Part shown: positions 20,062 to 63,112 of the stretch, one piece after another
How the letters are laid out: each line of letters opens with the position of its first letter
How positions within the stretch are numbered: the stretch's first letter is position 1
DNA from: a virus
IMG/VR virus record: IMGVR_UViG_3300044712_001034
Location: 30,080 to 94,079 of that record
DNA: 64,000 bases
Direction: 5' to 3' (one strand)
Notes under the pieces: generated by a model
Told to the model about the DNA's origin: nothing
The model's input: the letters and a program-made list of their open reading frames with translations, nothing else
The model's database searches: none
Translations under genes and position numbers: made by a program

Positions 20062-20259
20062 ATGAAACTATGGGTAGTAGGTAGAGTATTAGATATGGAT
20101 TATTGGGAATTCATCGGAGTTTTTGATGATGAACAGCTTGCTGTAAACGCATGTTTTGACACCCTATGCTTTGTTGGGCCTTGTATTTTAAACGAAAATG
20201 TAGGAAGGGAAACTATCGAATGGCCTGATAGCTATTACCCAAGAAAGGATAACTTATGA
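20062..20259 (+). CDS. Hypothetical protein, 65 aa
   Basis: Small protein opening MKLWVVGRVLD, a beta-alpha-like pattern often seen in phage orphan proteins. Coupled to the next gene. No function assigned. Confidence 0.7.
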   Translation: MKLWVVGRVLDMDYWEFIGVFDDEQLAVNACFDTLCFVGPCILNENVGRETIEWPDSYYPRKDNL

Positions 20260-20987
20260 TTACGTTTAGTCAGTTAGGAAAATTTGGCAGATTCGGAAAT
20301 CAACTTTGGCAAATAGCTAGCACTATAGGTATAGCTATTAAAAATAATCAAGACTTTGGATTCTCGGAGTGGGAATATCAAAAATACTTTGAACATTCTT
20401 TACCCTTATATAATCAAAAGAAACCAACTAGAAGAGTACCAGAGTTATCTTCTGGATATGTTGATACCACCCTAAAAGATTTTGTAGATCATGATTTACA
20501 AGGTTATTTTCAAAGCTATAAATACTTTGAACATTGTAAAGATTTAATAGAATATTTTTTTGAACCAATAATCGAAACAAATGATCACGGTCTAGATCAA
20601 ATAGCAATTCATGTTAGAAGAACTGATTATTTGTCTCTTGGTCATATTCATCCTAATCTTACAATGGATTATTATAATAAGGCTATGAAATTATTTCCCG
20701 GAAAAGAATTCAAGATATTCTCTGATGACATTGAGTGGTGTAAACAAAACTTTGATAATGATACTTGTACATTCGTTATTGAAAATCCACAGAATGATCC
20801 AGTATTAGATTTCTTTTATATGTCAAAACACGCAGGATTTATTATTGCTAATAGTTCGTTCTCTTGGTGGGCCGCTTGGTTAGCTAAAGATAAACCAGTG
20901 GTGTCTCCTAACGTTTGGGCCTATAATGAACCTAGAGAAACGATAGAAGATCGTATTCCTCCTGGGTGGGAAAGGATTTCAATATGA
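20256..20987 (+). CDS. GT11-like alpha-1,2-fucosyltransferase
   Basis: First gene of the glycan cassette. The HVRRTDYL motif at 119-126 is the GDP-fucose-binding signature of family GT11, and the FGRFGNQLWQ N-terminus also fits. The enzyme moves L-fucose from GDP-fucose to a galactose-type acceptor. No GDP-fucose synthesis gene is visible, so the donor would come from the host. Soluble, no signal peptide. Confidence 0.85.
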   Translation: MITFSQLGKFGRFGNQLWQIASTIGIAIKNNQDFGFSEWEYQKYFEHSLPLYNQKKPTRRVPELSSGYVDTTLKDFVDHDLQGYFQSYKYFEHCKDLIEYFFEPIIETNDHGLDQIAIHVRRTDYLSLGHIHPNLTMDYYNKAMKLFPGKEFKIFSDDIEWCKQNFDNDTCTFVIENPQNDPVLDFFYMSKHAGFIIANSSFSWWAAWLAKDKPVVSPNVWAYNEPRETIEDRIPPGWERISI

Positions 20988-21568
20988 GAATAAATGAACG
21001 GGGCTATTGGGAAGGTAAAGAAGGTTTACCTCACGGGGTAGATCTTGGGTTAGCAAAAGAGTTAGCTAGATTTTTTTCAAAGAATAACGCAGATTTAGTA
21101 TTTGATTTAGGATGCGGAAATGGATTTTATACGCATTATCTAAATAATTACGGTGGTATGTTGTGTGAAGGTTATGACGGTAATCCGTTTACCAAAGAAT
21201 TAGCTGGTGATAATTGTTATGTAGCTGATTTATCTGTTCCGCAAGAGTTTGGAAAAGCTAATTGGGTTATGTCATTAGAAGTAGCAGAACATATTCCAGA
21301 AGAATTTGAAGATGTTTTCATTGATAATCTTCATAGACATAATACAGAGGGTATTGTTATCAGTTGGTCTATTCCTACTTTCGGTGGGGATGGGCATGTA
21401 AATCCAAAAGAAAATTCTTATGTGATTGATAAGTTTACCAAGCTAGGTTATAAGTATGATGAAGATTCTACAATAACACTTAGATACAGTTGTGCTGGTT
21501 ATCCTAATCCCTGCTGGTGGTTTGGCTTTACTATCTTTGTTTTTAGAAAGGATAAAAATGCCATTTAG
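20984..21568 (+). CDS. SAM-dependent methyltransferase, class I
   Basis: The start at 20984 is within ATATGAG that overlaps the fucosyltransferase stop; AAGGA precedes it. Rossmann SAM site DLGCGNG at 41-47 and an AEHIP segment near 103. In this setting it probably methylates a sugar or a tail or capsid side chain rather than DNA. Confidence 0.78.
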   Translation: MRINERGYWEGKEGLPHGVDLGLAKELARFFSKNNADLVFDLGCGNGFYTHYLNNYGGMLCEGYDGNPFTKELAGDNCYVADLSVPQEFGKANWVMSLEVAEHIPEEFEDVFIDNLHRHNTEGIVISWSIPTFGGDGHVNPKENSYVIDKFTKLGYKYDEDSTITLRYSCAGYPNPCWWFGFTIFVFRKDKNAI

Positions 21569-22067
21569 CAAATTTGATTTATATAAAAATAATTACTTTG
21601 TAGAAACTGGTAGTTATTATGGTAATGGAATTCAGTCAGCTATAGATGCTGGATTTAGAAATGTAATCTCTATAGAGATTACAGATAAGTATTTTAGACA
21701 TTGTGTAAATAGATTTAGAAATAATAAAAATGTAACCTTAGTCTTCGGAGACTCAGCAGAGAAGCTTTCTGAAGTTATAAGCAATATAAAAGAGCAAATA
21801 ACATTTTATCTAGACGGTCATTGGGATTTAGACGAGGACGAGACTAGAGGTATTTTTGATTTCCCAATCTATAAAGAACTAGAAATTATAGCAACCCATC
21901 CAGTAAAAACACATACTATAATAATAGATGATGTTAGATTATTTAAAGCTTTGTGGAATGTTTCAGAAGATATTATTGTTAATAAATTGTTAGAAATAAA
22001 TCCACAATATGTAATAGAATATGCAGATGGTTACACAGACAAAGATGTACTTATAGCACACATATGA
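21558..22067 (+). CDS. SAM-dependent methyltransferase-like protein
   Basis: The start at 21558 follows AGGA. VETGSYYGNGI near residues 15-25 and ISIE around 37-40 look like SAM-binding motifs I and II, and FYLDGHW resembles the FkbM-like group. Likely a sugar O-methyltransferase of the cassette; the call is moderate. Confidence 0.65.
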   Translation: MPFSKFDLYKNNYFVETGSYYGNGIQSAIDAGFRNVISIEITDKYFRHCVNRFRNNKNVTLVFGDSAEKLSEVISNIKEQITFYLDGHWDLDEDETRGIFDFPIYKELEIIATHPVKTHTIIIDDVRLFKALWNVSEDIIVNKLLEINPQYVIEYADGYTDKDVLIAHI

Positions 22068-22720
22068 AAACATACTTTACTTGTTATGCTGATGAAAACT
22101 ACGAGAACCAGCAAGAAGAAATACTAAAAGAGTGTAACGAGTTTGATTATAAAGTTCCATATAAAAAGCAATTTCTAATTGATAGTGGTTTTTACGAATA
22201 TCAAAAACACTCTCTAACTTCTTTAAAGAATGGTGGGTGCGTTTGGAAACCATACATAATTTTAGATTTATTTCTTAAAATAGATCCGGGAGATTTGCTA
22301 GTTTATTTTGATTGTGGAGATAAGATATTACCAGGCTACCTATCTTTTATAAAAAGTAGAATTAGACAGGATACTTTTTTTATTACAAGCAATTTTGTAA
22401 ATAGATACTGGACAAAAACTTTCTGTTTCAAGTATATGGAGTGCAACGAAGACAAGTATAAAGATACGCTACAATTAGATGCTGGACAGATTGGATTTAT
22501 AAAATCTCCCTTTACTGAAAGCTTATTACAGGAGTGGAATAACTACTGCTCGAACTATCTAGTGCTGTTAGATGATCCGTTAGGAGAACGAGACGATCAT
22601 GTTATAAGGCACAGCAGAGATCAGAGTATTCTTACGAACCTGCAAGTAAAGTATAATATACCAGCATCTTCTATCAACGAAGTAGAGCGTAAGTATACCA
22701 TTCATAATTACAGAGGATAG
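22064..22720 (+). CDS. Probable glycosyltransferase
   Basis: GT-A-like features: an alpha/beta N-terminus, VYFDCGD at 80-86 that could serve as the metal-binding DxD, and QLDAGQIGF further on. Position within a run of sugar enzymes supports it. The family is not certain and no donor can be inferred. Confidence 0.6.
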   Translation: MKTYFTCYADENYENQQEEILKECNEFDYKVPYKKQFLIDSGFYEYQKHSLTSLKNGGCVWKPYIILDLFLKIDPGDLLVYFDCGDKILPGYLSFIKSRIRQDTFFITSNFVNRYWTKTFCFKYMECNEDKYKDTLQLDAGQIGFIKSPFTESLLQEWNNYCSNYLVLLDDPLGERDDHVIRHSRDQSILTNLQVKYNIPASSINEVERKYTIHNYRG

Positions 22721-22721
22721 G

Positions 22722-23471
22722 ATGATCTATTTAATTACAGGAACAGATGAAAAGTACTACCCAAAAATTTATCCATATCTAGAAACTATTAATAAGTATT
22801 CTGCTTTTAAAAATATTCTATTATGTGTTGGATTTAGCAAAGATTCGGAATTTGATAATATAACTTATAAATCAATTCCTAAAGATTCTCTTACTGATAT
22901 TACAACTAATCCGTGCGTCCAAGCAGGAGAGTTCCTACCTTACGTCTCCTTTAATGATGACGATATAATTATATTTACAGACGGAGACATTAGATTACAG
23001 CGAGCTTTTACAAACGAAGAACTAAATAAAGTTTCTAATGTAAAGCATGATGAAGTTTTGATAGGACCAAATGCTACCCATTCAAACAACACTTTACTGA
23101 ATGAAGCTAATGGTCTAAATAGATATTGTAGCGACGAGTATTTAAATTCTCTATTTAGTGAGTACGGGATAAACAAAAACTCAGCTACGCTTAATGTTGG
23201 TGTAATAATTTGTACTACAAAAACTTATAAAAGAATTTATGAGCTTACCTATGAGATATATAATAAATATCCAAAAGTAACAGATCATATGGCGAGGCAA
23301 CAATGGTATATAAACTGTGCTATATATTCTTTTTGTAATGTTAGTTTATTACCATTTAGTTTTCACTCTCACCCACACAACGGATCACAACCTGATATGT
23401 CATTTGAAGCTGACCACACAATGTATGTAAATGGCGAAAGAGTATTATTTAGGCACAAGTACTATGTTTAA
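22722..23471 (+). CDS. Glycosyltransferase, GT8-like
   Basis: DxD motif D87-G-D89 within TDGDIR after a hydrophobic strand is the nucleotide-sugar and metal site of GT-A retaining enzymes. The later N-V-G-V-I-I-C-T-T block and HSH motif fit the same fold. Donor unknown. Confidence 0.68.
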   Translation: MIYLITGTDEKYYPKIYPYLETINKYSAFKNILLCVGFSKDSEFDNITYKSIPKDSLTDITTNPCVQAGEFLPYVSFNDDDIIIFTDGDIRLQRAFTNEELNKVSNVKHDEVLIGPNATHSNNTLLNEANGLNRYCSDEYLNSLFSEYGINKNSATLNVGVIICTTKTYKRIYELTYEIYNKYPKVTDHMARQQWYINCAIYSFCNVSLLPFSFHSHPHNGSQPDMSFEADHTMYVNGERVLFRHKYYV

Positions 23472-24063
23472 TATTAATGATACAAACGGAGATAGTAAGC
23501 TTTTAGCTCATATTCAATACACATTACTAGATAAGTTTCCAAATGAGCAATTATATGGGGTGGAGTTCGGAGTTGCTTTTGGTGGTGGTATAGAACAAAT
23601 ATGTTCTATATGGAAAGATAAAGGATTTGTATTAGGTTATGATACCTTTACTAATCATCCCGGATTTTTAGCAAAGGATGAAAACTCTCCTGAAGCTACA
23701 GCTATGGATGGGTGGTATCAGAAGCTAGGAAAAGATAAGTTATCAAAAAAATATATACAAAGTGAGTTGGAAAAATCATTTAGCAATTTTGAACTAATCG
23801 AAGGACTAGTAAACAATAAAACTAAAAAGAGAGATTACAAGTATCACTATGTTTTATTGGACTTTGATTTAGCAGAGTCAATGCAGTACGCTTATGATCT
23901 TATTAAAGATAATTTGCATCCCGGTGGTTTTATTTGTGTTCACGATATTATTCCAGATACGCATATGCCAATGCTAAACTCCTGGTGGTTTAACGCTATA
24001 TTACCAAAAGAAAACTATAAGCTATATAGATATGGAAAACACTTGGGGGTTTATCATGTATGA
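23464..24063 (+). CDS. TylF-like sugar O-methyltransferase
   Basis: SAM methyltransferase of the macrocin O-methyltransferase (TylF) type: GVEFGVAFGGG as motif I, then GYDTF, a catalytic-type LLDFDL and HPGGFICVHD. These enzymes methylate hydroxyls on sugars. The start at 23464 overlaps the previous stop; a longer start at 23431 is possible. Third methyltransferase of the cassette. Confidence 0.75.
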   Translation: MFNINDTNGDSKLLAHIQYTLLDKFPNEQLYGVEFGVAFGGGIEQICSIWKDKGFVLGYDTFTNHPGFLAKDENSPEATAMDGWYQKLGKDKLSKKYIQSELEKSFSNFELIEGLVNNKTKKRDYKYHYVLLDFDLAESMQYAYDLIKDNLHPGGFICVHDIIPDTHMPMLNSWWFNAILPKENYKLYRYGKHLGVYHV

Positions 24064-25099
24064 TTATTTAATAGTAGGTGCTGGAATAACCGGATCTGTG
24101 ATAGCCCATGAAATGCACAAGCTAGGTAAAAAAGTACTAGTTATAGATTCTAGAGATCATGTTGGCGGTAATTGCTTTTCTAAAGATATAAATGGTGTTC
24201 ATGTAAATCTGTATGGTGGTCATTTCTTTCATACGAATAGCAAAAGTATCTACGATTATGTAAATAATATCTGCCCTTTTACTCCTTATTATCATAGAGT
24301 TAAAGTAAATTACAAAGATAACATATACTCTTTCCCTATAAATATGCTGACATTTTTTCAGCTTTGGGGAACCATTACACCGGAACAAGCTAAAGCAAAA
24401 ATAGAAAGTGTAAAGCTAAATATAGTTCCAACTAACTTCGAAGAAAAGGTTTTATCTATGGTTGGAGAAGAAGTATATTATAAGTTTTTCTATGGATATA
24501 CAAAGAAGCATTGGGGAGTAGAACCTAAAGAGTTATCCGCAAAATTGATTAGTAGAATTCCTATTAGATTTACTTATGATGATAGATACTCTAGCGACCT
24601 TTATCAAGGAATGCCTGAGCAAGGATATGATTACTTTTTTAATAAGCTATTAGATGGGATAGAAGTTAAACTTGATACACAGTATAACTATGAAACTATA
24701 GCTAGTAAAACTATTTATACCGGATCTATAGATCAGTATTATAAATATATTTATGGTACGCTTCCATACAGAAGTGTGTATCACACATACTCCGATGAAG
24801 ATACGGGAGCAGCTACTATAAACTACACTAGTGAAGATATTAAGTACACAAGGCAAATAACTTATAACTATTTTTATCCGCAAAATAGAGCAGAAAAAGT
24901 AACTGCTACAGAGTTTGCATCAGATTACGGACCTCCCTACTATCCAATAGATACAGAAAAAAGTAAAAGTCTTTATAATAAATATAAAGAAATAAAAAAT
25001 GATTCTGTAATTTTTGCTGGAAGATTGGGAACTTACGCTTACCTAGATATGGATAAAGCATTAGCTAGTGCATTAAAGATTGTAAAGGATGAATTATGA
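24056..25099 (+). CDS. glf: UDP-galactopyranose mutase
   Basis: FAD enzyme that converts UDP-galactopyranose to UDP-galactofuranose. The N-terminal GAGITGS (8-14) FAD motif, an HVGGNC loop, NLYGGHFFHT, GYTKKHWG, and the C-terminal FAGRLGTYAYLDMD segment are hallmarks of Glf. 347 aa is near full length. The start at 24056 follows GGGGG and lies in the previous gene's end. It implies a galactofuranose-containing glycan made with phage help. Confidence 0.93.
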   Translation: MYDYLIVGAGITGSVIAHEMHKLGKKVLVIDSRDHVGGNCFSKDINGVHVNLYGGHFFHTNSKSIYDYVNNICPFTPYYHRVKVNYKDNIYSFPINMLTFFQLWGTITPEQAKAKIESVKLNIVPTNFEEKVLSMVGEEVYYKFFYGYTKKHWGVEPKELSAKLISRIPIRFTYDDRYSSDLYQGMPEQGYDYFFNKLLDGIEVKLDTQYNYETIASKTIYTGSIDQYYKYIYGTLPYRSVYHTYSDEDTGAATINYTSEDIKYTRQITYNYFYPQNRAEKVTATEFASDYGPPYYPIDTEKSKSLYNKYKEIKNDSVIFAGRLGTYAYLDMDKALASALKIVKDEL

Positions 25100-26025
25100 T
25101 TATTTCGCAAACCCCATTAAGGGTGTCTATTATAGGTGGGGGAACTGATTTACCAGAATGGTTTGAGCATAATGAAGGTTGTGTTGTTGGATCATCAATA
25201 GATAAATATATTTATGTAATAGTAAATAATAGATTTGATGATAAGATTTCTGTTGGTTATTCTAAGCAAGAAACTGTAGATTCTGTAGAAGAAATTCAAC
25301 ACGATTTAGTTAGAGAAGCTGCGAAAGCTACAGGAATGACCAAAGGATTTGAAGTAAAAACTATGGCTGATGTTCCTTCACAAGGCTCTGGTTTAGGATC
25401 TTCTAGTGCTGTTTTAGTTGGGTTACTAAATGCTTTTTATCATTATCAGAATAATCCGAAAGAACACTCTCACTTAGCTTATCAAGCATTTTATATAGAG
25501 AGGTATGTTTTAGGTAGAAATGCTGGAATGCAGGATCATATGTTCTCTTCTTTTGGTGGACAGCTTAGACTATCGTTTTCTAACGATCTTCCTTATCACG
25601 AACCTGTAAAACTTTCAGACGATAACTTGTTTTTGCATTACACAGGTATAACTAGAAATGCTAATGATATTCTAAAAGAGCAAGCTTCTAGTATAGAAGG
25701 AAAAGAAGAGTTATATAAAAAGCTAACCAAATTAGCTAAAGAGTTTAATCAAGAACATATTTGTGATGTTCTTGGAAATGGTTGGGCAATAAAGAAACAA
25801 CTAGCTGATGGTATTTCAAATACAGAAATAGAAAATATGATAAGCATCGCTGAATCAAGTGGAGCTATGGCATATAAAATTTTAGGTGCTGGTGGGGGAG
25901 GATTTCTTTTATCTTATGTTCCAAAGGATCTACAAGACCTATTCTTAGATAAGATGAAAGATTATAAACAACTCCCGTTTAGGTTTACAAATTATGGGAC
26001 AAGGATTATTTACAATGGGATATAA
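25096..26025 (+). CDS. hddA: D-glycero-D-manno-heptose 7-phosphate kinase (GHMP family)
   Basis: GHMP kinase with ATP loop GSGLGSSSA at 97-105 and C-terminal GAGGGGF near 265. The N-terminal PLRVSIIGGGTDLP is typical of HddA/FKP-like sugar kinases. HddA phosphorylates C1 of heptose 7-phosphate on the way to GDP-heptose. The gene directly before a GmhA-like isomerase supports heptose rather than fucose or galactose as substrate. Confidence 0.82.
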   Translation: MIISQTPLRVSIIGGGTDLPEWFEHNEGCVVGSSIDKYIYVIVNNRFDDKISVGYSKQETVDSVEEIQHDLVREAAKATGMTKGFEVKTMADVPSQGSGLGSSSAVLVGLLNAFYHYQNNPKEHSHLAYQAFYIERYVLGRNAGMQDHMFSSFGGQLRLSFSNDLPYHEPVKLSDDNLFLHYTGITRNANDILKEQASSIEGKEELYKKLTKLAKEFNQEHICDVLGNGWAIKKQLADGISNTEIENMISIAESSGAMAYKILGAGGGGFLLSYVPKDLQDLFLDKMKDYKQLPFRFTNYGTRIIYNGI

Positions 26026-26503
26026 TATTGCGTTTGATATTGACAATGTAGCTACTATGATAGCTAATTGCAGAGGTATAGTTTATACCTGTGGAAATGG
26101 TGGAAGCTCTTCAGCAGCATCACATTTTACGCAGGATTTAATAAAAGCTTGTGGAATAAAATCTATCTGTATTACAGATAACGTTCCTTTTATTACTGCT
26201 ACTGCAAATGATGATAGTTATGATAATATCTTCAGAAATTTTATGGAGTTGTTTTGGACAGCGCAAGATCTACTAGTTCTTATTAGTGGTAGTGGTAATA
26301 GTGTAAATTTACTAAAAGTTACTGAAGCTATGCGAGGTAAAGTAAAGACTATAGCTATTGTTGGTTTTGATGGGGGAGAATTAAAAAACATGGTTGATTA
26401 TGTTATTCATGTTCCAATCTCAGATATGAGGAAAGCAGAAGACAAACATATTCAGGTTTTACATGAGATTATTGATAGGATTGGAGATGAACCCATTCGA
26501 TAA
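26015..26503 (+). CDS. gmhA: Sedoheptulose-7-phosphate isomerase, SIS domain
   Basis: Makes heptose 7-phosphate from sedoheptulose 7-phosphate. SIS-domain signatures CGNGGSSS at 26-33 and LISGSGNS further on match GmhA, slightly shorter (162 aa) than usual. The start at 26015 follows AAGGA inside the kinase end. No GmhB phosphatase or nucleotidyltransferase is seen, so later steps must be host-supplied. Confidence 0.83.
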   Translation: MGYNIAFDIDNVATMIANCRGIVYTCGNGGSSSAASHFTQDLIKACGIKSICITDNVPFITATANDDSYDNIFRNFMELFWTAQDLLVLISGSGNSVNLLKVTEAMRGKVKTIAIVGFDGGELKNMVDYVIHVPISDMRKAEDKHIQVLHEIIDRIGDEPIR

Positions 26504-27689
26504 ATTTTCAAAGATATTTTGCATCAATTTAGATAGGCGTGTAGATCGTTGGGAACAAGCTCAAAAAGAATTTGAAAAAGCTGGAATACTAGATAAAGTC
26601 GAAAGATTTTCAGCATACAACCTTCCTTATGCTACAGCTAGAGGGAACCACCTAAGTCACGCCGCTTGTATAAAAAAAGCCAAAGAAAATAATTGCGAAA
26701 ATGTTTTGATATTTGAAGATGATGTTGAGTGGCTAAATGATCCGCTAATTTTGAAAAGGGTGGATTTACCTACTGATTGGGATCTTTTTTACCTTGGAAT
26801 AAATATGGATAGATATAGTGCAACGCAAGTTAATTACCATCTAGCCAAGATAAATGGTGGGTATTCTACACACGCTTATGCAATCAATAAAACATTATTT
26901 GATACTCTTATAGAACTAAATGAGGATACGAAGACCGTTCATAATGATGTTAGAATGGCTTATGAAATAATTCCAAATTATAATTGCTATGTATCTGTAC
27001 CATTACTGGCGGGACAAAGAGATTCTTACTCGGATATTCAAGGAAGAAGAATGGATTCTAATCAAGTGTTTTTAGAGAGGTTCGATCAACACCTTACAAG
27101 AAAGAAATTTAAAGTTGCTGAGCCTACATTTTGTACATTTGTAACCCCGACAATAGGTCGTAAAACATTACCAAGAACTGTGCAATCTTTTATAAATCAA
27201 ACAGATTGGAGTTGGAAAGCTATTGTTATGTTTGATGGTAGAGATATAAACTATGAGTGTGATAATGACCACGTTCTAATAACTAAATGTGAGCAACAAA
27301 ACTCTGCTGGACTAACAAGAAATGAAGCTATGAAGTTAGTAACTACTGATTGGATAGCATTTTGTGATGATGATGATTGGCTAGCTGAAGATTATTTAGT
27401 AACACTAAGACAATATGTAGAAAATAATGATGTAGTTATCTTTACTTATCGTGATGTCAAGACAGGTAATACTCAACCTCCTGTTTATATAAATGACATA
27501 ATTAGTTGTAATGTTGGAATTAGCTTTGCTGTAAGAACGGATTTTGTTATAAAGAATAATATACAATTTCCAAAGGGCGCAATTGAGGATTTTGCATTTC
27601 TCGATGCTTGTAGAAATGCAGGAGCAAGATATGTTCTCACTCACCAAATTAAATATTTAGTGGGTGGGATCGGAGGTAATCAATTATGA
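26487..27689 (+). CDS. Two-domain glycosyltransferase, GT25 + GT2
   Basis: The N-terminal domain (1-200) is GT25-like (FCINLDRRVDRW, then HLSHAACI and FEDDVEW at 76-82), as in LPS or collagen-type glycosyltransferases. The C-terminal domain (about 212-400) is GT2-like with FVTPTIGR and the CDDDDW metal site at 293-298. The fusion could add two sugars in sequence. The start at 26487 follows GGAG. Confidence 0.82.
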   Translation: MNPFDKFSKIFCINLDRRVDRWEQAQKEFEKAGILDKVERFSAYNLPYATARGNHLSHAACIKKAKENNCENVLIFEDDVEWLNDPLILKRVDLPTDWDLFYLGINMDRYSATQVNYHLAKINGGYSTHAYAINKTLFDTLIELNEDTKTVHNDVRMAYEIIPNYNCYVSVPLLAGQRDSYSDIQGRRMDSNQVFLERFDQHLTRKKFKVAEPTFCTFVTPTIGRKTLPRTVQSFINQTDWSWKAIVMFDGRDINYECDNDHVLITKCEQQNSAGLTRNEAMKLVTTDWIAFCDDDDWLAEDYLVTLRQYVENNDVVIFTYRDVKTGNTQPPVYINDIISCNVGISFAVRTDFVIKNNIQFPKGAIEDFAFLDACRNAGARYVLTHQIKYLVGGIGGNQL

Positions 27690-28336
27690 CAATAACACTC
27701 TGCATCCCCACGCTTTCTCGATACGATCTTTTGAAGAGATGCTTAGAGTCTGCTGAAGCCGGTATTATAAAACCAGACAGATATTTAGTAATAGACAATG
27801 GTGGAAGTTTAGATTTAAAATTACCAAAATTAGAAGTTGTAAAATTTGGTTATAACTTAGGTGTGGCTAAAAGCTGGAATTACTTTATTAATTATACGGA
27901 AGAAGTAAGAGTTATTTGTAATGATGATATTTTCTTTCATCCAGAAACACTAAGAAATCTTTTAGCAGAGTATGAAGGAAATCAAATAACTTGTACTAGG
28001 GATTTAGAAGCTAGCTCCTTTTCTTTATTTACTATTGGAGATGAGTTAGTAAATACTGTTGGATTATTTGATGAATCCATTTCTCCTGGTTATGCTTACT
28101 TTGAAGATAATGACTATGCTTATAGAATGGAGCTTCTAGGTTATCAAATCCACAGAGTACATAACTGCTCTTGTGGTCATTTTGGAAGCGCTACCCTAAA
28201 GAACTATTCTTCTAGAGAAATGGAAGATCATCATAATAAATTTAGAATTGCACAAAATAATTATCAAAAAAAGTGGGGTGGATTACCTGGAAAGGAAGAA
28301 TATAAAACACCTTACAACGGAGTAAATAATGAGTAA
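27686..28336 (+). CDS. Glycosyltransferase family 2
   Basis: GT-A inverting fold with CIPTLSRYDLL at the start, VIDNGG, and the DxD-type CNDDIFF near residues 77-83. Last enzyme of the cassette; overlaps both neighbours. Donor unknown. Confidence 0.8.
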   Translation: MTITLCIPTLSRYDLLKRCLESAEAGIIKPDRYLVIDNGGSLDLKLPKLEVVKFGYNLGVAKSWNYFINYTEEVRVICNDDIFFHPETLRNLLAEYEGNQITCTRDLEASSFSLFTIGDELVNTVGLFDESISPGYAYFEDNDYAYRMELLGYQIHRVHNCSCGHFGSATLKNYSSREMEDHHNKFRIAQNNYQKKWGGLPGKEEYKTPYNGVNNE

Positions 28337-28622: not shown

Positions 28623-29675
28623 ATGACTAAATATCTTGATACCTGGACCAGAGATGCTAAGGTTGGTAAGCTAAACCTAATTGATCGCTATAATCTATGG
28701 CGAATGAAAGAAGAGCCTACCCTAATTGGTACTCTTGATCCAACGACTTTAGCCAGACAAATTGATATTTCACATTGGCAAGGTGATGTTGATATTGCCA
28801 AGATGAAAGCAGAAGGAGACATTTCAATGGTGTTTCCAAAAGCTTCGGATGGCAAACAAGTACAAGCTGGTGATCCAACTTATGCTAATAACTATGTTGA
28901 TGATTGGCTTTATCGTAATGTGCAGAAATGCTACGATGCTAAAATAGCTTGTGGACCCTACCATTATGTACAACCATTTTTTCCAGATTACACTCTAGAA
29001 GGTATTGTAGCTTGGAACATGAAAACTCTTCACGCAGCTTTAGACCCACTAACTCCAAAGAAAAGCTATCATGCAATTGTTCTTGATGTTGAAGAAGCTA
29101 CTGGTACAGAACCAAATCGAAGTGATGTTGTACTAAAGATGATGGAAGCTATTGCGGCTGATCCAAAGATGTCGCAAGTTCCTGTAATTGTTTATTCCTC
29201 AATGAGTATGTACAACTCTTATTATCCAAAACTTAGGGACCAGTTGTCTTTCCCCGGAGCTAATAAAAACTTATGGATGGCTCAATGGGTTTACAATACT
29301 GTAACTAATACAACTTGGGCTAATGTTGTTTCTACTATTATGCCTTCTATTAGTATGAAAGTTCTTACTCCCGGTTTTGCAACTTGGAAGTTTCTACAAT
29401 GGAGTTCTTCACTAATTCTTCCCGGTGGAAGTGGGAGAACTGATGTTAATTTCTACAATGGAACTAAAGCAGCCTTATATTCTTGGCTAGGATTTGATCC
29501 CGGTACTGTAGTTCCACCTCCCCCACCCCCACCAGCTACAGATCTAACAGCTAGAGTAGTAGCACTAGAAACTAAAGTAGCGGAACAGGAAACAAAACTC
29601 ACCGCACTAACAACTAAGGTAGACGCAGGACATACACACTCTGTTACTATCCCAGTTGTAACTACATCTAAGTAA
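28623..29675 (+). CDS. Endolysin / GH25 lysozyme with C-terminal tail module
   Basis: Glycoside hydrolase 25 (muramidase) that cuts peptidoglycan: DISHWQG at 48-54, D155-x-E157 as catalytic acids, and a late FLQWSS then GRTDVNFY. A Pro-rich linker near 295-302 leads to a short coiled coil and a HTHSV end, which is more typical of virion-attached parts. It may be a free lysin or a virion-linked one. No signal peptide, so release would need a holin. Confidence 0.88.
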   Translation: MTKYLDTWTRDAKVGKLNLIDRYNLWRMKEEPTLIGTLDPTTLARQIDISHWQGDVDIAKMKAEGDISMVFPKASDGKQVQAGDPTYANNYVDDWLYRNVQKCYDAKIACGPYHYVQPFFPDYTLEGIVAWNMKTLHAALDPLTPKKSYHAIVLDVEEATGTEPNRSDVVLKMMEAIAADPKMSQVPVIVYSSMSMYNSYYPKLRDQLSFPGANKNLWMAQWVYNTVTNTTWANVVSTIMPSISMKVLTPGFATWKFLQWSSSLILPGGSGRTDVNFYNGTKAALYSWLGFDPGTVVPPPPPPPATDLTARVVALETKVAEQETKLTALTTKVDAGHTHSVTIPVVTTSK

Positions 29676-37344: not shown

Positions 37345-38514
37345 ATGAAAAGGATAAAATTATTAGTTTGGGCTGACCAAGTTGTTGAAACTGGGTTTGC
37401 TAGAGTAGCACACTCTATTGTAAAGTACTTACCTAGAAATTATGATGTAGTTGCAATAGGTGTAAATTACTATGGTGATCCACATAACTATCCATATAAG
37501 ATCTATCCCGCTTCAACAAACGGGGATATATATGGAATAAAAAGAGTGGAAGACATTGTAAAGCACGAGCAACCAGATGTTATATTTATTATAAACGATG
37601 CTTGGATACAACAGCCTATGCTAGATAAGCTAAAGGAGATTTATAAAGATAAAGAGCTTCCTAGAATAGTTACTTATACTCCCGTTGATGCTGCTGAACA
37701 TGACAGCGATTGGTACAAACCTTTTGATGTTGTATCAGTTCCAGTAGCTTATACAGAATTTGGTAAGCGGGAAATGATAAAGGCAAGCCCACAATTAGAG
37801 GATAGAATAAAAATTGTTCCTCATGGTATAGATCAAAAAGTTTTCTTTAAAGTTTCTAGACCTAAAGAAGATCTAAAAAGAATGATCTATCCAGATAAAG
37901 ATGAATTTATTAATAGCTTTATAGTCCTTTCTGCTAGTCGTAATCAACCTCGTAAACGATTAGATATTGCTATGGAAGGTTTTAAAATGTTTGCAGAAAA
38001 TAAACCTGCAAATGTTAAAATTTATATGCATTGTGGAGTAGTTGATTCTGCAATTAATATTCCAAAGATGGCACAAAGATTAGCTATTGGTGGAAGATTG
38101 TTACTCACAAGTTTAACTACTGGCGTTCAAAGAATTCCAGCAGAAAGATTAAATCTAATTTATAATGCTACAGATGTAGGAATTAATACTGGTGTAGGAG
38201 AGGGTTTTAGCCTAACAAATATTGAGCACGCTATTACTGGTGCTCCACAGGTTGTTGCAGATCATAGTGCTTTACAAGAGCTTTACTATGATTGTGGCTT
38301 GCTTATCCCAACAAAGATGAACTACACCCTAGATAATATTATGACTGTGGGGAAATTAGTAAGACCAGAAGACGTAGCAGAAAAACTAGAATTACTCTAC
38401 AACAACAAAGATTTATATAATACTTTAGCTGAACAAGGTCTAAAGAAGTTCTCTTCACCAGAATATTCTTGGCAAGAGATTTCTAAAACTTGGGCAGAAA
38501 TTTTTGAGGGATAA
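37345..38514 (+). CDS. GT4-family glycosyltransferase in the head-tail module
   Basis: GT-B enzyme: N-terminal VVETGFARVAHS glycine loop, IVPHGID linker strand, and the C-terminal donor-site GEGFSLTNIEHA with its E-x7-E type spacing. It is not in the main glycan cassette but between connector genes, with AAGGATAAAGGA upstream. It may glycosylate capsid or tail parts during assembly, or be a moron gene. 389 aa is full length. Confidence 0.85.
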   Translation: MKRIKLLVWADQVVETGFARVAHSIVKYLPRNYDVVAIGVNYYGDPHNYPYKIYPASTNGDIYGIKRVEDIVKHEQPDVIFIINDAWIQQPMLDKLKEIYKDKELPRIVTYTPVDAAEHDSDWYKPFDVVSVPVAYTEFGKREMIKASPQLEDRIKIVPHGIDQKVFFKVSRPKEDLKRMIYPDKDEFINSFIVLSASRNQPRKRLDIAMEGFKMFAENKPANVKIYMHCGVVDSAINIPKMAQRLAIGGRLLLTSLTTGVQRIPAERLNLIYNATDVGINTGVGEGFSLTNIEHAITGAPQVVADHSALQELYYDCGLLIPTKMNYTLDNIMTVGKLVRPEDVAEKLELLYNNKDLYNTLAEQGLKKFSSPEYSWQEISKTWAEIFEG

Positions 38515-54949: not shown

Positions 54950-55297
54950 ATGGCGTATAACTTACCAACACACATTAAAGGAGATACCTTTGACGGAGTA
55001 GAGTTTACTCTAGTTCTGAATAGCGCTCCTGTTGATTTAACTAATGCTGTTATAGATATGGACGTTAGAAAAAAGGTAAATCCAAAATCTAGCAGCTTGC
55101 TAAGAATATCTTCCACTACGGGAGGTATAGAAATAGGTACACCTGCTACTAGCGGTATCTTTAGCATAGTGCCTCAAATAGTAGATATTGCCGCTGGCGA
55201 ATATGTTTATGATATTCAGATAGCTTTTCCAGATGGAGAAGTAAAAACATACATAGCTGGTGATTGGACAATAACACAGGATATTACTCATGGATAA
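54950..55297 (+). CDS. BppU-like N-terminal fibre adaptor, 115 aa
   Basis: Ends with YVYDIQIAFPDGEVKTYIAG, the fold of BppU-type baseplate domains (immunoglobulin-like). Directly before the collagen fibre it probably anchors that fibre. Overlaps it by 8 bases. Confidence 0.65.
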   Translation: MAYNLPTHIKGDTFDGVEFTLVLNSAPVDLTNAVIDMDVRKKVNPKSSSLLRISSTTGGIEIGTPATSGIFSIVPQIVDIAAGEYVYDIQIAFPDGEVKTYIAGDWTITQDITHG

Positions 55298-58200
55298 TAT
55301 TACAATCAATATAACTGAAACTCCAACTGAAGTTACTATTACCTCTACTGGTTCCAGGGGGCCACAAGGCCTTCCTGGTACTGATGGGCGAGAAGTAGAG
55401 CTTCAATTAGGAGCTACTTATGTCCAATGGAGATATGCAGGAGAATCTACTTGGAACGATCTAATCGCAGTAGCAGACTTAGTTGGTCCCCAAGGACCAG
55501 TAGGCGTAAGCGGTTTACAGGGTATTCAAGGTATCCAAGGTCTTCCCGGTGATGATGGTAGAGAAATAGTATTAGATGCTAACGCTACTCATATTGTCTG
55601 GCAATATTCAGGTGATGTATCTTGGACTAATCTAGTTGCTTTAGCTGATCTAAAAGGAGAGCAAGGCGATATAGGTCTAACTGGCCCCCAAGGACCAATA
55701 GGGCCTAGTGGCGTAGCTGGAACTCCTGGAACAAATGGAGTAGCAGGAGCAGATGGTAGAGAAGTAGAATTACAAAAATCTGCTACACATGTTCAATGGA
55801 AATATGATACAGACGTTGTTTGGACAGATTTAGTAGCTTTAGCTGATCTACAGGGCGCACAAGGTCTAACAGGTCCAGAGGGTCCACAAGGACCAGCAGG
55901 ACCAAGCGGAATTGGTATTCAAGGTCCAATGGGACCAGAAGGTCCAGTAGGTGCTAGTGGTTTACAAGGGCTACCAGGAACTAATGGTGCTGACGGTAGA
56001 GAAGTTGAACTACAGAATAATGGAACAGTAATCCAATGGAAGTATGATACTGATGTATCTTGGACAGACTTAGTTGCTATTAGTGGTCTAAAAGGCGACA
56101 AGGGTGATACTGGTTCTGCCGGAGCTACTGGCGCTACGGGTCCACAAGGTCCAGTTGGGGCGAGTGGTTTACAAGGAGTTGCCGGACTAGACGGAAGCTC
56201 AGTCTTAAATGGAACTGATGTTCCTCACTTAGCTGATGGTGATGCTGGCGACTTTTACATAAACACCACAACGCATGTTATTTATGGCCCTAAAGTAACA
56301 AGTAGTGGATCTGCTTCGGTTATTACTATACAACCTGACGAGGCTTCTGGATACGATACATATATCAACTCTAATGGTGGTAATTTAAACTTTGGAACAA
56401 ATGTCGCTTTGCTTGTTGGCGGTGATGCAACTTTAGCCAATAGGCCAAAAAGAGCATTAATAAAAGTTAGTTTATCCGGCGTTCCAACAAATATAGATGT
56501 GCTTAGCGCACAACTTTCGGTATATTGTACAGCAGAAAACGACACTAGTGACCAAACCTTAAACATAAATAAAGCTTTAATAGAGTGGTTTGAGGGAGAT
56601 CAGTCACAAGGTCTTAGCTTAGGTGGAAGCTCTTTCTATTATAGAGTGTATAATACTATTGGTTGGACAGACGGGGTAGATGGAGGAAAGCCAGGAACAG
56701 ATTATACTGCGGCTGCTACATCTTCTGTAGTAGTTAGTGGAATTAATACTTGGTATACCTTTGATGTAACTACCGATGTTCAATCTATTCTAGATGGGTC
56801 AAGCCCTAATTATGGTTGGTTTGTAATTGGTGAAAACGAAAACACAGTCGGAACTGTAAAAACATTTGCTAGCTCTAACTACGCTACAGCTACTTATAGA
56901 CCAAAGCTAGTAATAACCTATAATGCTGCTGCCTCTTGGGGAGATGGTGTGTCTCTTGTAGGGCCAACTGGCGCTACAGGTCCGGCAGGAACAAATGGTT
57001 TACCTGGATCAGGTATTGCTACTGGTGGAACAGCGGGACAGTTCTTAGTAAAGAAAAGCACTACTAACTATGATACAGAGTGGATTACTACTAATGAAGA
57101 TGGTTATGGTTTCGTATCTAGATCAGAGACTACAATCGCTTTTGATGGAACTAATACCTTTACATTAGCTGATGCTGGCTCTGGTTGGAGTTATTACAGA
57201 GCAGGAAGAAAGTATTCTATCTCTGGCAATAAAACAGCGGTATTATCTGCTACTCCACCCGCAGCTAAGGGTATGTACTATATTTACATAGATTCTACAG
57301 ATGGTACTTTATCTGTAGGTACAAGTCCCTGGACACTTGATTTAGGCGACACGAAAGTTCCTGTAGCTACTATAGCTTGGGATAATGCACTAACTCCTAA
57401 ATATTGGTTACACGATGAAAGACACTCTTCAGCGTATCCAAGACGAGTTCATTGGCACGAGCATATTCTAGAGGGCACTCAGCTAAAAAGCGGTGGTGTA
57501 GTCGCTGGTTATACTGTAGCCGGTTCTACTGACGCAGAAAACACCTTTGGAGTTACAGAGACAAAAATCGTAGACGAAGATATTGAAATAACTATCTCAG
57601 GTCTTTCTGATCCAAACGGAACTGATTCTGTGTACAACCTTATGTACCGCACAGCAACTACTACTTGGGTATGGGAAACTTCTCCAATGCCTTATCGTTA
57701 TACTGCGGCAGGTTATATTCAGTATGACAATAATGGTACGATGACTGAAGGGCAAACTGGTAGGTATTATAACTCTTACCTTTGCTATACCAACAATGCC
57801 GGAGGTAATGGTTTTACTATTATTCATGGTAGAGGTTCGTTTACTTCTTTGGCTTTAGCCCAAGCAGAAACTCCAACGTTCTCTATGGTAGGGGTTCCTT
57901 TAGACGAATACATTATTGCTTATCAGTTTACTTGGTTTACTAACGCTTCTTACACTACAAAAGGTAAATGTAGATTAGCGGCTACTCCTGTTGAAGTTAA
58001 TACTTCTAGAGTTTCTAGCACAATTGCTACTCCTTTACTATCGCATAATACACTAGCGGGTATACAAGGTGGTACAGCTAATGAGTACTTCCACCTTACA
58101 GCTACTCAGCTATCCGGGATTGTTCCCTCTGGCGGTTATCAAGGCCAAAGATTAGCTAAGTTATCTGATGCTGATTATGACTTTGTTTGGCTACCCCAAG

Positions 58201-59072
58201 ACGCTTTCCCAATTATTTACTTTAGAAACTTACCTGATGTAGATGTTGCAGGTAGAGCAGATGGAGATACCATCATTTACAGCACAGCGGATCAAAGATG
58301 GCACGCACAAGCTCCCGCTACTACAACAACATCTTCTGGTACTAATGCAGGTACAGTTTATACTTATGATATATCTTCACAGATAGCAACTTCGGTTAGT
58401 GGTCACTATACAACTACTTCACAAATAGTAGCAGATCATAACCAAGTATTCTGGAATGGTTTACTACAAGAGCCAACAGCAATTACTGTTGATGGTAATG
58501 GTTATGGGTTTACTTGTGTAGGCTTTGTTCCAGCATCGGGAGACAAATTAGTAGTAGTAACTGCTCTTAGTGGTACTACACATACCCATAACTACGTAGC
58601 TAATCCTATGACTGTTACTGGGGATATGATTATAGCCACTACAAGTGGAGCAGCTACTAGATTACCAGTAGGTGTTTCAGGTCAAGTTCTAAAAACTATT
58701 GATGGTGTTCCCACTTGGTCTAATAACTATTCACAAGCTATCTTTACTGTAGTCGGTACTTTAGTAGTTGCCTCTGGTGCAATTCGCTTATACAACGCTA
58801 CTGGTTCAGCTAAGACAATTTCAAAAGTGTTTCTTAGTGTTTCAACTGCTCCTACTGGGGCTACTATTATTGCTGATATAAACAAGAACGGTACTACAAT
58901 CTTCACTTCACAAGCTAATCGACCAACTATTGCAGTTTCCGGGTTTACTGGAAGTACTACTACAATAAATGTTCCTACTTGGGATGCAGATGAATACCTT
59001 ACTTTAGACGTAGATCAAATTGGCTCCACAATAGCTGGTGCTAATCTCACAGCCCACGTTGTGTATTCATAG
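55290..59072 (+). CDS. Collagen-like tail fibre, 1260 aa
   Basis: Long fibre with Gly-x-y collagen blocks alternating with four copies of a 33-residue beta module (residues 32-64, 89-121, 155-187, 235-267; core DGREVELQ ... W-x-DL). A DNRLRE/carbohydrate-binding-like domain (about 330-535), a second short collagen stretch near 550-572, and a beta-rich C-terminal region follow. Collagen repeats give trimeric rods. Ser/Thr-rich collagen is a classical glycosylation target. Receptor-binding end likely C-terminal. Confidence 0.85.
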   Translation: MDNITINITETPTEVTITSTGSRGPQGLPGTDGREVELQLGATYVQWRYAGESTWNDLIAVADLVGPQGPVGVSGLQGIQGIQGLPGDDGREIVLDANATHIVWQYSGDVSWTNLVALADLKGEQGDIGLTGPQGPIGPSGVAGTPGTNGVAGADGREVELQKSATHVQWKYDTDVVWTDLVALADLQGAQGLTGPEGPQGPAGPSGIGIQGPMGPEGPVGASGLQGLPGTNGADGREVELQNNGTVIQWKYDTDVSWTDLVAISGLKGDKGDTGSAGATGATGPQGPVGASGLQGVAGLDGSSVLNGTDVPHLADGDAGDFYINTTTHVIYGPKVTSSGSASVITIQPDEASGYDTYINSNGGNLNFGTNVALLVGGDATLANRPKRALIKVSLSGVPTNIDVLSAQLSVYCTAENDTSDQTLNINKALIEWFEGDQSQGLSLGGSSFYYRVYNTIGWTDGVDGGKPGTDYTAAATSSVVVSGINTWYTFDVTTDVQSILDGSSPNYGWFVIGENENTVGTVKTFASSNYATATYRPKLVITYNAAASWGDGVSLVGPTGATGPAGTNGLPGSGIATGGTAGQFLVKKSTTNYDTEWITTNEDGYGFVSRSETTIAFDGTNTFTLADAGSGWSYYRAGRKYSISGNKTAVLSATPPAAKGMYYIYIDSTDGTLSVGTSPWTLDLGDTKVPVATIAWDNALTPKYWLHDERHSSAYPRRVHWHEHILEGTQLKSGGVVAGYTVAGSTDAENTFGVTETKIVDEDIEITISGLSDPNGTDSVYNLMYRTATTTWVWETSPMPYRYTAAGYIQYDNNGTMTEGQTGRYYNSYLCYTNNAGGNGFTIIHGRGSFTSLALAQAETPTFSMVGVPLDEYIIAYQFTWFTNASYTTKGKCRLAATPVEVNTSRVSSTIATPLLSHNTLAGIQGGTANEYFHLTATQLSGIVPSGGYQGQRLAKLSDADYDFVWLPQDAFPIIYFRNLPDVDVAGRADGDTIIYSTADQRWHAQAPATTTTSSGTNAGTVYTYDISSQIATSVSGHYTTTSQIVADHNQVFWNGLLQEPTAITVDGNGYGFTCVGFVPASGDKLVVVTALSGTTHTHNYVANPMTVTGDMIIATTSGAATRLPVGVSGQVLKTIDGVPTWSNNYSQAIFTVVGTLVVASGAIRLYNATGSAKTISKVFLSVSTAPTGATIIADINKNGTTIFTSQANRPTIAVSGFTGSTTTINVPTWDADEYLTLDVDQIGSTIAGANLTAHVVYS

Positions 59073-60068: not shown

Positions 60069-60230
60069 ATGGCTACTAATATTAGAGTCTCTGCTGAAAA
60101 GCTAATAGTAGAGTATGTAGCTACTTACAATGATAGGTTTGTTTCTGCGGTTAAACTGATGGTGGAATACAATGACGTAGTTCCACCAATAACGGTAGAA
60201 TATGGACCACCTTTACAGGTTATGAACTAA
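60069..60230 (+). CDS. Small VEY-repeat protein, 53 aa
   Basis: Contains three VEY repeats (VEYVATYND, VEYNDVV, VEYGPP), likely beta strands. Stop overlaps the following start (TAATG). Could be a fibre tip or a small lysis factor; unknown. Confidence 0.65.
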   Translation: MATNIRVSAEKLIVEYVATYNDRFVSAVKLMVEYNDVVPPITVEYGPPLQVMN

Positions 60231-60493
60231 TGAAGCCCATAACATTTTACTTTTTAGTAGCCCAACTTCTAGATTTATGCACGACAGGAGTTGGGCTACT
60301 CCTAGGGCTTTGGGAAACAAATCCAGTAGGAATAAACCTCAATACTATTATAAGCAAGCTGTTAGTTATTTTACTAGGCGTAATAATATTCTCTAGATTA
60401 AAAATGCCCAAGCTAGCCTGGATAATAGTAATAATATCAGCCATTCCCGTATTATGGAATTTATTAGTAATTACTTGTGAATTACTAGTCTAA
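60230..60493 (+). CDS. Membrane protein, 87 aa, holin candidate
   Basis: About three membrane helices (4-25, 38-57, 62-84). LLDLCTTGVGLLLG and WETNPVG fit the DUF5658 group. Small size and site at the end of the late operon would suit a holin, but DUF5658 proteins are not known holins. Confidence 0.6.
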   Translation: MKPITFYFLVAQLLDLCTTGVGLLLGLWETNPVGINLNTIISKLLVILLGVIIFSRLKMPKLAWIIVIISAIPVLWNLLVITCELLV

Positions 60494-60501
60494 GGAGAAC
60501 T

Positions 60502-61236
60502 ATGGCAACAAAAATATCATTAGCAACAAATACAAAACCAGACGGTAGCGAGGGACAAGCGTTATTAGTTTACAATGGTGCTCCTGCTTGGAGTTCTTCT
60601 CTAATTACCGGATGGACTACACTCGCTGGAACATACGCTTATGTTAGTGCAAGTACATTTACTATAGTAGGTGATTACACTACTGTATTTACTACTGGTG
60701 TTAAACTAATGCTCAATAATACAACTACTAAGTACTTCTATGTACTTAGTTCTACTTATTCTGCACCTAACACTACAGTAACCGTAACTGGGGGTAGTGA
60801 TTATTCTCTCGCTAATCTAGCGGTTACAGCAGTAAATATAAGTCATCTAACTGCCCCCTCTGGTTTTCCAGATTGGTTCAACTATGCTCCCGCTTTAGCT
60901 GGCTGGTCTTCTGCCCCTGCTACTGCGGTATACAAGTTTAGAATAGATGGTAGAAAGGTAATGGTAGTTGTAAAACAAGCTGGTGCAGCTACTAGCGATC
61001 AGTTGTATCTAATTATTCCCGCCCCAGTAACAGCAGCTACAGTTACTAGCGCTACTTGGGGAGCTTGTTGTTGGGCTGCTACAGATAGTGGAACAGCAGT
61101 AACAGCACCAGCTAGGGCATACATAGGATCAGCAGGTACAAATATAACCTGCACAAAAGATCTTACCGGAGTAACAAATAGCTGGACAGCTTCGGGAACA
61201 AAATTAGTAAACTTCCAATTAGAGTATGAAATATAA
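60502..61236 (+). CDS. Tail fibre or receptor-binding-like protein, 244 aa
   Basis: Starts with a short MATKISLATNT segment as seen at fibre N-termini, then Thr/Ala/Ser-rich beta strands. Two domains with a linker near 110-130. Probably virion-attached. Confidence 0.65.
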   Translation: MATKISLATNTKPDGSEGQALLVYNGAPAWSSSLITGWTTLAGTYAYVSASTFTIVGDYTTVFTTGVKLMLNNTTTKYFYVLSSTYSAPNTTVTVTGGSDYSLANLAVTAVNISHLTAPSGFPDWFNYAPALAGWSSAPATAVYKFRIDGRKVMVVVKQAGAATSDQLYLIIPAPVTAATVTSATWGACCWAATDSGTAVTAPARAYIGSAGTNITCTKDLTGVTNSWTASGTKLVNFQLEYEI

Positions 61237-61829
61237 TGAAACTAACCGGATTGGAAGTACCTATATTAATCTTCGCAGTATTCTCTTTTATCCTGCTTAC
61301 TTATAAGAGTATAAAGAAAAGAGACATTAGTATTTTTGGTGCAGCTATACCAAGATTGTTTGTCGCCCTTATGATGGGACTAGAAATATATTCCGGATTA
61401 ACACAACCTTTCTTAGTAAGAACTGCACTAATCCTATTACTTCTAAGTGATACTATAACTGGTATGTTACATTATATAGTAGAGAAGCAGATGAACAAAA
61501 CCTACGGAACTGTTATTAGTTCGCTAAGACAAAAACTAAGTGCAGCTTTAGATGGTTCTTTCTCACCTTTCTTCACTATAGATACTACTGGGAGAATAGA
61601 ATACTTGAATGACAGTCTTGCTAATTTAGTAGGACTAGATAAAGAGTATCTAATCGGAAACAATCTTCTAAAGCTATTAGAAATAACTAATACAGTAGAA
61701 GAACTAAAAAAGAATGGAATAGTAGAGTGTAACATCAAAACAAAAGATGGTTATAGAAAAGCTAAGATTATCGGCAAGGAGACACAGAACGGACACATAA
61801 CTATAACTGGTAGTATCTACTTTCTATAG
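61236..61829 (+). CDS. Membrane-anchored PAS-domain protein, 197 aa
   Basis: N-terminal three hydrophobic helices (about 7-24, 33-52, 60-80), a short coiled linker, and a PAS-like domain from about 98 to the end (FFTIDTTGRIEYLNDSLANLVG, then G-x2-L-x-LLE). No kinase, GGDEF or other output domain follows. PAS domains sense small molecules or redox. In the lysis region it may tune holin or host membrane state. The start overlaps the previous stop. Confidence 0.75.
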   Translation: MKLTGLEVPILIFAVFSFILLTYKSIKKRDISIFGAAIPRLFVALMMGLEIYSGLTQPFLVRTALILLLLSDTITGMLHYIVEKQMNKTYGTVISSLRQKLSAALDGSFSPFFTIDTTGRIEYLNDSLANLVGLDKEYLIGNNLLKLLEITNTVEELKKNGIVECNIKTKDGYRKAKIIGKETQNGHITITGSIYFL

Positions 61830-61841
61830 TAGGGGGAATAC

Positions 61842-62288
61842 ATGAATTTACAAGACATTGAGCCTAGCATAATAATAGCACTATTCTCCCTGTTAGGTAC
61901 TATAGTTATGGCTTTACTACAACTACGAAAAGACAAGGCAGAAATAAAACGCGCTGCTCAACAACTAGAAATAGAAAATAGTAAAGCAGGAATAGATGCC
62001 GTAGAAAGTATCGCAGATATAGTATTGAAAATGCACAAGCAAGAAATAGATACTTTGAGAGCAATCGCAGAAGATCTAAAATCTAGAAATAAGTATCTAG
62101 AGGAAGAACTAACTAATTGCCAAGTGCAACTAAAAGAAAGAAATAAGATGATAGATGAAATAGAACAAGACTTGCGATCTTGCGCCAAAGATAAATCTAT
62201 AGCATACAATAAGATAGAAGAGTTAATGAGAATCGTTAATTGTGAAATAGATGTAAATGGTAACATAATACCAAAAGAAGGAGGATAA
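61842..62288 (+). CDS. Membrane-anchored coiled-coil protein (holin- or spanin-like)
   Basis: One hydrophobic helix near the N-terminus (about 9-27), then more than 100 residues of charged coiled coil, as in i-spanins or some holins. GGGGG precedes the start. If the host is Gram-positive a spanin is unlikely and another lysis role must apply. Confidence 0.62.
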   Translation: MNLQDIEPSIIIALFSLLGTIVMALLQLRKDKAEIKRAAQQLEIENSKAGIDAVESIADIVLKMHKQEIDTLRAIAEDLKSRNKYLEEELTNCQVQLKERNKMIDEIEQDLRSCAKDKSIAYNKIEELMRIVNCEIDVNGNIIPKEGG

Positions 62289-62292
62289 CAAT

Positions 62293-62796
62293 ATGCCATA
62301 TAACATGGATAAAGATTTAGGGGGAGATAGTAAAGAGAATGATACCTGGATGGAGTTGTCAAGGGGTTATAAAACATTAATAGATCCGGAATACTATGAG
62401 CAATTATCTAAATACAAATGGCATGTGCAATCATGTAAAAGTCAATTATATGCCGCTACAATTATTAATAGAAAAACAGTTTATTTACATAGACTATTAT
62501 TTAATAATCCCACAGAGCATATAGTAGATCATATAAACCACGACACTTTAGATAACAGAAAACACAATCTTAGGTTAGTTAGCAAACAACAAAATTCTTT
62601 TAATTCCAGACCTAAAAACAAGTTATATCCTAAAGGAGTTTGTTTTGATAAACAAACTGGTAAATATATAGCGCAAATAATGATAAACAGTAAAAACTAT
62701 AAATTGGGTCGCTACACTACACCAGAAGAAGCGGCTAATGTTTATGGTGCAAAAGCCCAAGAATTATTTGGTAATTATAATTATAAAGGAGATTAG
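62293..62796 (+). CDS. HNH-AP2 homing endonuclease fused to phage small-gene start
   Basis: The first 19 residues (MPYNMDKDLGGDSKENDTW) resemble the opening of the next gene. From Met20 it is an HNH endonuclease (VDHINHDTLDNRKHNLRLV near 78-97) with a C-terminal AP2 DNA-binding domain (KGVCFDKQTGKY, LGRYTT). The only strong ribosome site (AAGGAGG) precedes the first Met. It looks as if the mobile gene landed in a small gene and uses its start. Confidence 0.85.
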   Translation: MPYNMDKDLGGDSKENDTWMELSRGYKTLIDPEYYEQLSKYKWHVQSCKSQLYAATIINRKTVYLHRLLFNNPTEHIVDHINHDTLDNRKHNLRLVSKQQNSFNSRPKNKLYPKGVCFDKQTGKYIAQIMINSKNYKLGRYTTPEEAANVYGAKAQELFGNYNYKGD

Positions 62797-63079: not shown

Positions 63080-63112
63080 TAGCCAGTATATAACAATACT
63101 GGCTAATTTTTT
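63080..63112 (+). terminator. Late-operon terminator
   Basis: 10-bp stem TAGCCAGTAT/ATACTGGCTA, 6-nt loop, then TTTTTT. Ends the rightward transcript. Confidence 0.92.

Follow-up and report, generated by a model that had tools for sequence, protein, structure and literature searches.

A short membrane-anchored PAS protein of a tailed phage and its possible link to lysis timing

What sets the lysis clock of a phage, and whether phages read the state of their host before lysing, are old questions. Known cases of lysis sensing, for example T4 lysis inhibition, act on the periplasmic side. Class I holins of the lambda S type have three TM helices in an N-out, C-in arrangement. The protein analyzed here, a 197-aa PAS protein encoded by a tailed phage, has the same three helices and the same orientation, in its case by prediction only. 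It differs from these holins in an extra PAS domain of ~90 residues and in being about twice the size, and no sequence relationship with them was shown. A second point of comparison is LysF1b of F1 mycobacteriophages, a lysis-cassette membrane protein with a single TMD, N-out-C-in topology and a cytoplasmic domain. LysF1b has a measured role in lysis, which is impaired by its deletion, and works with a second multi-TM protein, indicating that normal lysis may depend on N-out-C-in proteins of the cassette (PMC13056207). The abstract mentions no PAS domain, and the layout of LysF1b is closer to that of the neighbouring gene product 61842 (genes are named here by their first base in the window) than to that of the PAS protein. 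The sensor histidine kinases WalK and CitA, both among the matches of our protein, have in common with it the PAS fold and a membrane helix running into the PAS domain. In contrast to these kinases, the phage protein carries neither a kinase nor another output domain.

The phage and the operon of the PAS gene

The virus record has 94,079 bases; the window, i.e. the whole stretch of 64,000 nucleotides that was analyzed, extends from base 30080 to its last base (94079). A 189-base repeat (99.5% identity) is shared by the two ends of the record. Another assembly of this phage, IMGVR_UViG_3300042876_000075, which is 99.98% identical across the overlap, spans the end of the window into the start of the record; the genome is thus essentially complete. 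It belongs to a tailed phage of ~94 kb with a tape-measure gene, 14 tRNA genes and a GC content of 34%. The portal shows only distant likeness to those of Bacillus phages Slash and Stills and of Microcystis phage MaeS, and a terminase scan of genome_contigs for a host gave no match. A search with terminase and portal yielded a single informative relative, the 70-kb contig G001 (mostly 40-80% amino acid identity), which ends within the tape-measure gene and therefore covers no PAS region. As side observations, a gene at window positions 55290-59072 encodes a fibre of 1260 aa in which collagen-like GPQG stretches recur, a gene run upstream of the lysin (20256-28336) includes sugar-metabolism-like genes as well as one for a GT11 glycosyltransferase (20256), and a further glycosyltransferase-like gene lies among the structural genes at 37345.

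The PAS gene is part of a tightly packed operon, which is probably expressed late (Table 1). It begins at an ATG overlapping the stop codon of the gene upstream, and 12 bases separate its end from 61842. Neither 60502 nor 60230 had a family match. The protein encoded by 61842 was considered as a spanin and rejected, since it is predicted to be N-out, C-in, as opposed to the N-in, C-out topology or lipoprotein partner of a spanin; its matches to Rz-like PHROGs reached only E values of 0.04-0.7. Downstream of 61842 comes an HNH/AP2 homing-endonuclease-like gene (62293-62796), after which a final small gene ends the operon.

Table 1 Coordinates of the features discussed, given as positions in the window
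Feature	Position	Strand	Evidence or remark
GH25 endolysin, sole lytic enzyme found in this phage	28623..29675	+	upstream of terminase
87-aa protein, about three hydrophobic segments	60230..60493	+	holin candidate on account of size and position alone
244-aa protein, resembling a fibre in composition only	60502..61236	+	overlaps PAS start codon
Membrane-anchored PAS protein gene, 197 aa	61236..61829	+	ORF list, Pfam, AF2, Foldseek
Three-helix membrane anchor, residues 7-82, predicted N-out C-in	61254..61481	+	KD peaks, AF2 helices, charges
Helical linker, residues 83-106, continuous with TM3, into PAS domain	61482..61553	+	AF2 helix 58-106
Compact PAS domain, residues 107-197, predicted cytoplasmic	61554..61826	+	Pfam, AF2, Foldseek
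Partner candidate, 148 aa, one TM helix and cytoplasmic coiled coil, no PAS	61842..62288	+	predicted N-out C-in
Terminator-like hairpin (strong stem) closing the operon	63080..63105	+	

Fold and topology of the PAS protein

The membrane part of the protein is apparent from three Kyte-Doolittle hydrophobic peaks (residues 1-27, 30-52 and 59-82) and from three AF2 helices (7-28, 32-53 and 58-106, the membrane part of the third being 58-82). The loop between TM1 and TM2 is rich in K/R (KSIKKRD), the loop between TM2 and TM3 is uncharged, and four K/R residues follow TM3. According to the positive-inside rule, this charge placement puts the PAS domain in the cytoplasm and the N terminus outside, and we infer an N-out, PAS-in topology. 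TM2 and TM3 contain charged residues themselves (R40, E49, R62, D72 and H79).

The C-terminal part scored 28.8 bits for Pfam PAS (PF00989) over residues 100-169 (E=1.3e-6), the curated cut-off being 22.6. AF2 modelling with alignment A7, which consists of 26 homologous PAS segments from viral contigs, most of them general PAS, gave a mean pLDDT of 80 and values of 85-95 over residues 111-180, with 90-95 for the greater part of the domain; the model obtained without an alignment (pLDDT 59) had a PAS-like topology in agreement with it. The elements follow the order strand-strand-four helices-three strands and form a five-stranded sheet. Foldseek returned 245 PDB matches at E<=0.001, the top ones being PAS domains and the best having an E value of 2.9e-6 and a target TM-score of 0.72. 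WalK is among the best sequence matches of the domain. Its compactness is due to several residues near the third and fourth helices of other PAS domains that are missing here (A7). Since the PAS region has just one cysteine (Cys165) and one histidine (His187), and neither a LOV-type cysteine nor a FixL-type haem histidine site is evident, these two cofactor sites were rejected. No output domain was matched in Pfam or PHROG, HisKA and HATPase included, and the ORF stops after the PAS domain. The protein thus combines a complete PAS fold with a three-helix anchor and has no output domain.

These results bear on a preliminary description of the locus made from the letters alone. Its membrane-anchored PAS ORF is exact in position, and its three-helix anchor, its PAS fold and the absence of an output domain were all borne out. 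Regarding the neighbours it named, a coiled-coil membrane gene does follow, while the fibre gene before the PAS gene is fibre-like by composition only. The sensing of redox or energy, which it had also proposed, found no support in the residues of the PAS domain.

Tethered PAS proteins in other phages and their neighbouring genes

In a search of 50,697 phage records, nothing clearly matched the whole protein, its PAS part or its anchor, genome_contigs contained no relative, and plasmid matches were to general PAS only. The membrane part has no recognized relative except in the 99.98% identical phage, whose PAS protein is identical, and a match of the protein to phrog_5308 ('holin') was weak (E=0.017). 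A scan of viral contigs with the classical S-box motif gave at least 124 motif placements, most of those listed lying within long multi-domain proteins; among the matches listed, the window protein is the only complete ORF of <300 aa with membrane segments.

Short tethered PAS proteins did turn up in other phages. Foldseek against viral models found a 172-aa protein of Cellulophaga phage phi18:3, assigned to gp090 by protein length only. This protein forms phrog_10199 together with gp36 of Ingeline_1 and gp11 of phiSM, all from Cellulophaga phages; like the window protein, its members are TM-anchored and PAS-like. Their genes come after those for fibre/pectate lyase or tail proteins, with an endolysin adjoining or close by. 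A weak match led to gp193 of Chryseobacterium phage MA9V-1, which has a PAS_4 domain above the cut-off, one TM helix and a coiled coil and, like gp249 of MA9V-2, is annotated as 'regulatory protein'. From there we came to g078 of Cellulophaga phage phi14:2 (Crassvirales), annotated as 'PAS fold protein'. A scan with alignment A5 found phi14:2 itself and nothing else. Searching viral contigs with a degenerate pattern for PAS_4-type PAS gave 36 stretches, of which ~16 were TM-coil-PAS proteins (some truncated or near-duplicates) and two were soluble PAS proteins. The former constitute a previously undescribed phage family (alignment A6) of 189-217 aa with one TM helix, a cytoplasmic coiled coil and a PAS domain. 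The preliminary description had called phage-encoded membrane PAS proteins rare. This applies to the exact layout of three helices and PAS, yet not to membrane-tethered PAS proteins of phages overall, as about a dozen distinct TM-coil-PAS proteins came from one degenerate scan.

The family members (phi14:2 g078, MA9V-1 gp193 and MA9V-2 gp249 among them) resemble the window protein in being short and phage-encoded, with a predicted outside N terminus, a cytoplasmic PAS domain and no output domain, and their genes often follow fibre genes as well. They differ in having one TM helix, a long coiled coil and PAS_4 instead of three helices and PF00989. Having three helices and lacking a coil in its own chain, the window protein stands outside the family; at its locus the same parts are split, a 3TM-PAS gene being followed by 61842, which has the layout of the N-terminal half of the family. 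Comparison of the A6 and window PAS profiles by hhalign gave a probability of 93% and an E value of 3.3e-7, a superfamily-level match in that most A7 rows are general PAS. The coiled coils of 61842 and A6 matched with an E value of 8e-5 over 34 coiled-coil columns only, for which we claim no shared descent. Nine of the 15 A6 members match phrog_10199, which ties the two groups together; phrog_10199 is very divergent and gave no sequence match with the window protein in direct comparison, so that the link runs through A6. Among the PHROGs matched by the TM-coil halves of A6 are 'hol-like chemotaxis' and 'hemolysin'.

Several TM-coil-PAS genes adjoin an endolysin gene, unlike the window gene. 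In phi14:2, g078 lies directly before the endolysin g077 and fills the slot between the fibre genes and the endolysin, with no other membrane gene between. phiSM gp11 is located directly before an L-Ala-D-Glu peptidase, phi18:3 gp090 two genes before an annotated endolysin, and MA9V-1 gp193 and MA9V-2 gp249 two genes after a GH108 lysozyme. On two contigs (L179, L182) the PAS gene comes after a small TM protein gene and directly before an M15 peptidase, which in L179 is itself followed by a lipoprotein; on a third (L176) the order is phage lysozyme, 3TM protein, Rz-like protein and PAS gene. The PAS gene is flanked by DUF5675 in L184, by a lipoprotein in L160 and by a 3TM protein in L155 and L158. 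It follows fibre-like genes with no lysis gene in view in L170/L187/L188 and in L156, and no lysis gene was seen near it in L175 and L161. Overall, a recognizable endolysin lies within three genes in 7 of ~17 lineages (A6 members and the related Cellulophaga family), whereas about half of the family loci have no lysis gene nearby. The binomial P value of 3e-5 to 8e-4 is a guide only, as we assumed the chance rate of 6-10% and the lineages are not fully independent of one another. The patterns and searches behind this set were built on PAS features, not on lysis genes. The literature searched contained no account of PAS proteins from lysis cassettes.

Some of these loci offered further observations. 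DUF5675, a candidate lysis enzyme, is encoded at L027:4689-5120 and L184:216-632, beside or near the tethered PAS genes of two unrelated phages, and in Ingeline_1 a DUF5675 gene lies two genes downstream of gp36, which is preceded by fibre genes. At L155:7299-7616 and L158:4851-5138, a three-TM protein of ~100 aa with a conserved CGxGH motif in TM2 is encoded directly after the TM-coil-PAS gene. By eye it resembles the N-terminal domain of ethylene receptors (PF25487, E=0.025, below the cut-off), and it might act as a metal-binding membrane sensor alongside the PAS protein. In Brevundimonas giant phages (L031:4953-5868, L032:4845-5775) a soluble PAS protein precedes a coiled-coil protein with a C-terminal TM helix, PAS and coil-TM being neighbours once more; these soluble PAS proteins lie away from recognized lysis genes.

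The window gene had also been placed in a lysis region. For this phage the placement was not borne out: the only endolysin found lies 32 kb upstream, and none was found within a few genes. G001 likewise has a GH25-like ORF immediately before its terminase (by eye), which indicates that the endolysin of this lineage is encoded away from the end of the operon. Comparison nevertheless supports a lysis link, in that distant membrane-PAS relatives repeatedly adjoin endolysins, which makes a lysis role plausible.

Possible functions of the PAS protein

These sequence comparisons suggest a lysis link of the window protein, and the function we favor, at slightly less than an even chance, is that of a sensory lysis-timing regulator acting through the membrane. 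The three-helix anchor would sit in the inner membrane in the arrangement of class I holins, and the cytoplasmic PAS domain would bind a small molecule or a partner, or would dimerize. A change in the PAS domain might travel along the joining helix (58-106, TM3) and alter oligomerization in the membrane, whereby the protein would delay or trigger lesion formation, either itself or via the products of 61842 and/or 60230; the distant GH25 endolysin would then get to the wall. In favor of such a regulator are the PAS fold with its anchor, the tethered PAS proteins beside lysis genes in unrelated phages and the match of the A6 and window PAS profiles. Against it, the element in common with the lysis-linked family is the PAS domain and the layout, not the whole protein, the endolysin is distant, the phrog_5308 match is weak, the soluble PAS proteins of Brevundimonas phages lie away from recognized lysis genes, and about half of the family loci are without a lysis gene nearby.

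The last point is also consistent with interference in host signalling, which we regard as unlikely. The membrane PAS protein would pair with host sensor kinases as PAS-PAS heterodimers and redirect envelope or stress signalling, its proximity to lysis genes reflecting a variable accessory site at the end of a late operon. The likeness to the PAS domains of host sensor kinases, WalK in particular, the common ability of PAS domains to dimerize and the missing output domain are consistent with this, while the repeated endolysin adjacency in unrelated phages argues against it.

In the strongest form of the lysis-timing reading, whose probability includes it, the protein is the holin proper and the PAS domain its cytoplasmic control domain. 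The class I-like topology, the charged residues in TM2 and TM3, the weak phrog_5308 match and the position of the phi14:2 gene point in this direction. However, 60230 and 61842 compete as holin candidates in the same operon and holins are usually smaller, so that we rate this form as improbable.

Small multi-TM phage proteins can act in superinfection exclusion or envelope protection, and such a role, with the PAS domain serving for dimerization only, would agree with a PAS domain that has no recognizable cofactor site; as the complete PAS fold is kept and no known exclusion family was matched, we consider it quite improbable. A functionless remnant of a captured host sensor kinase is very improbable: TM helices and PAS are the usual N-terminal part of kinases and close relatives are missing, but the ORF is intact and tightly packed in its operon, with a start overlapping the upstream stop, the protein is identical in the second assembly, and independent phage lineages retain short tethered PAS proteins without kinase parts.

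Returning to lysis timing, a ligand-gated lysis switch is possible, if doubtful. In this reading the protein, as a holin or a regulator of one, would use its cytoplasmic PAS domain to sense a metabolite or the state of the host and thereby time lysis, and several phage groups would have independently fitted PAS domains to membrane proteins of the lysis cassette. Some phages with tethered PAS proteins (phi14:2, phiSM, phi18:3 and MA9V-1) have cultured hosts. A cytoplasmic sensor in lysis-linked membrane proteins of several phages makes it directly testable whether phages read the state of their host before lysing.
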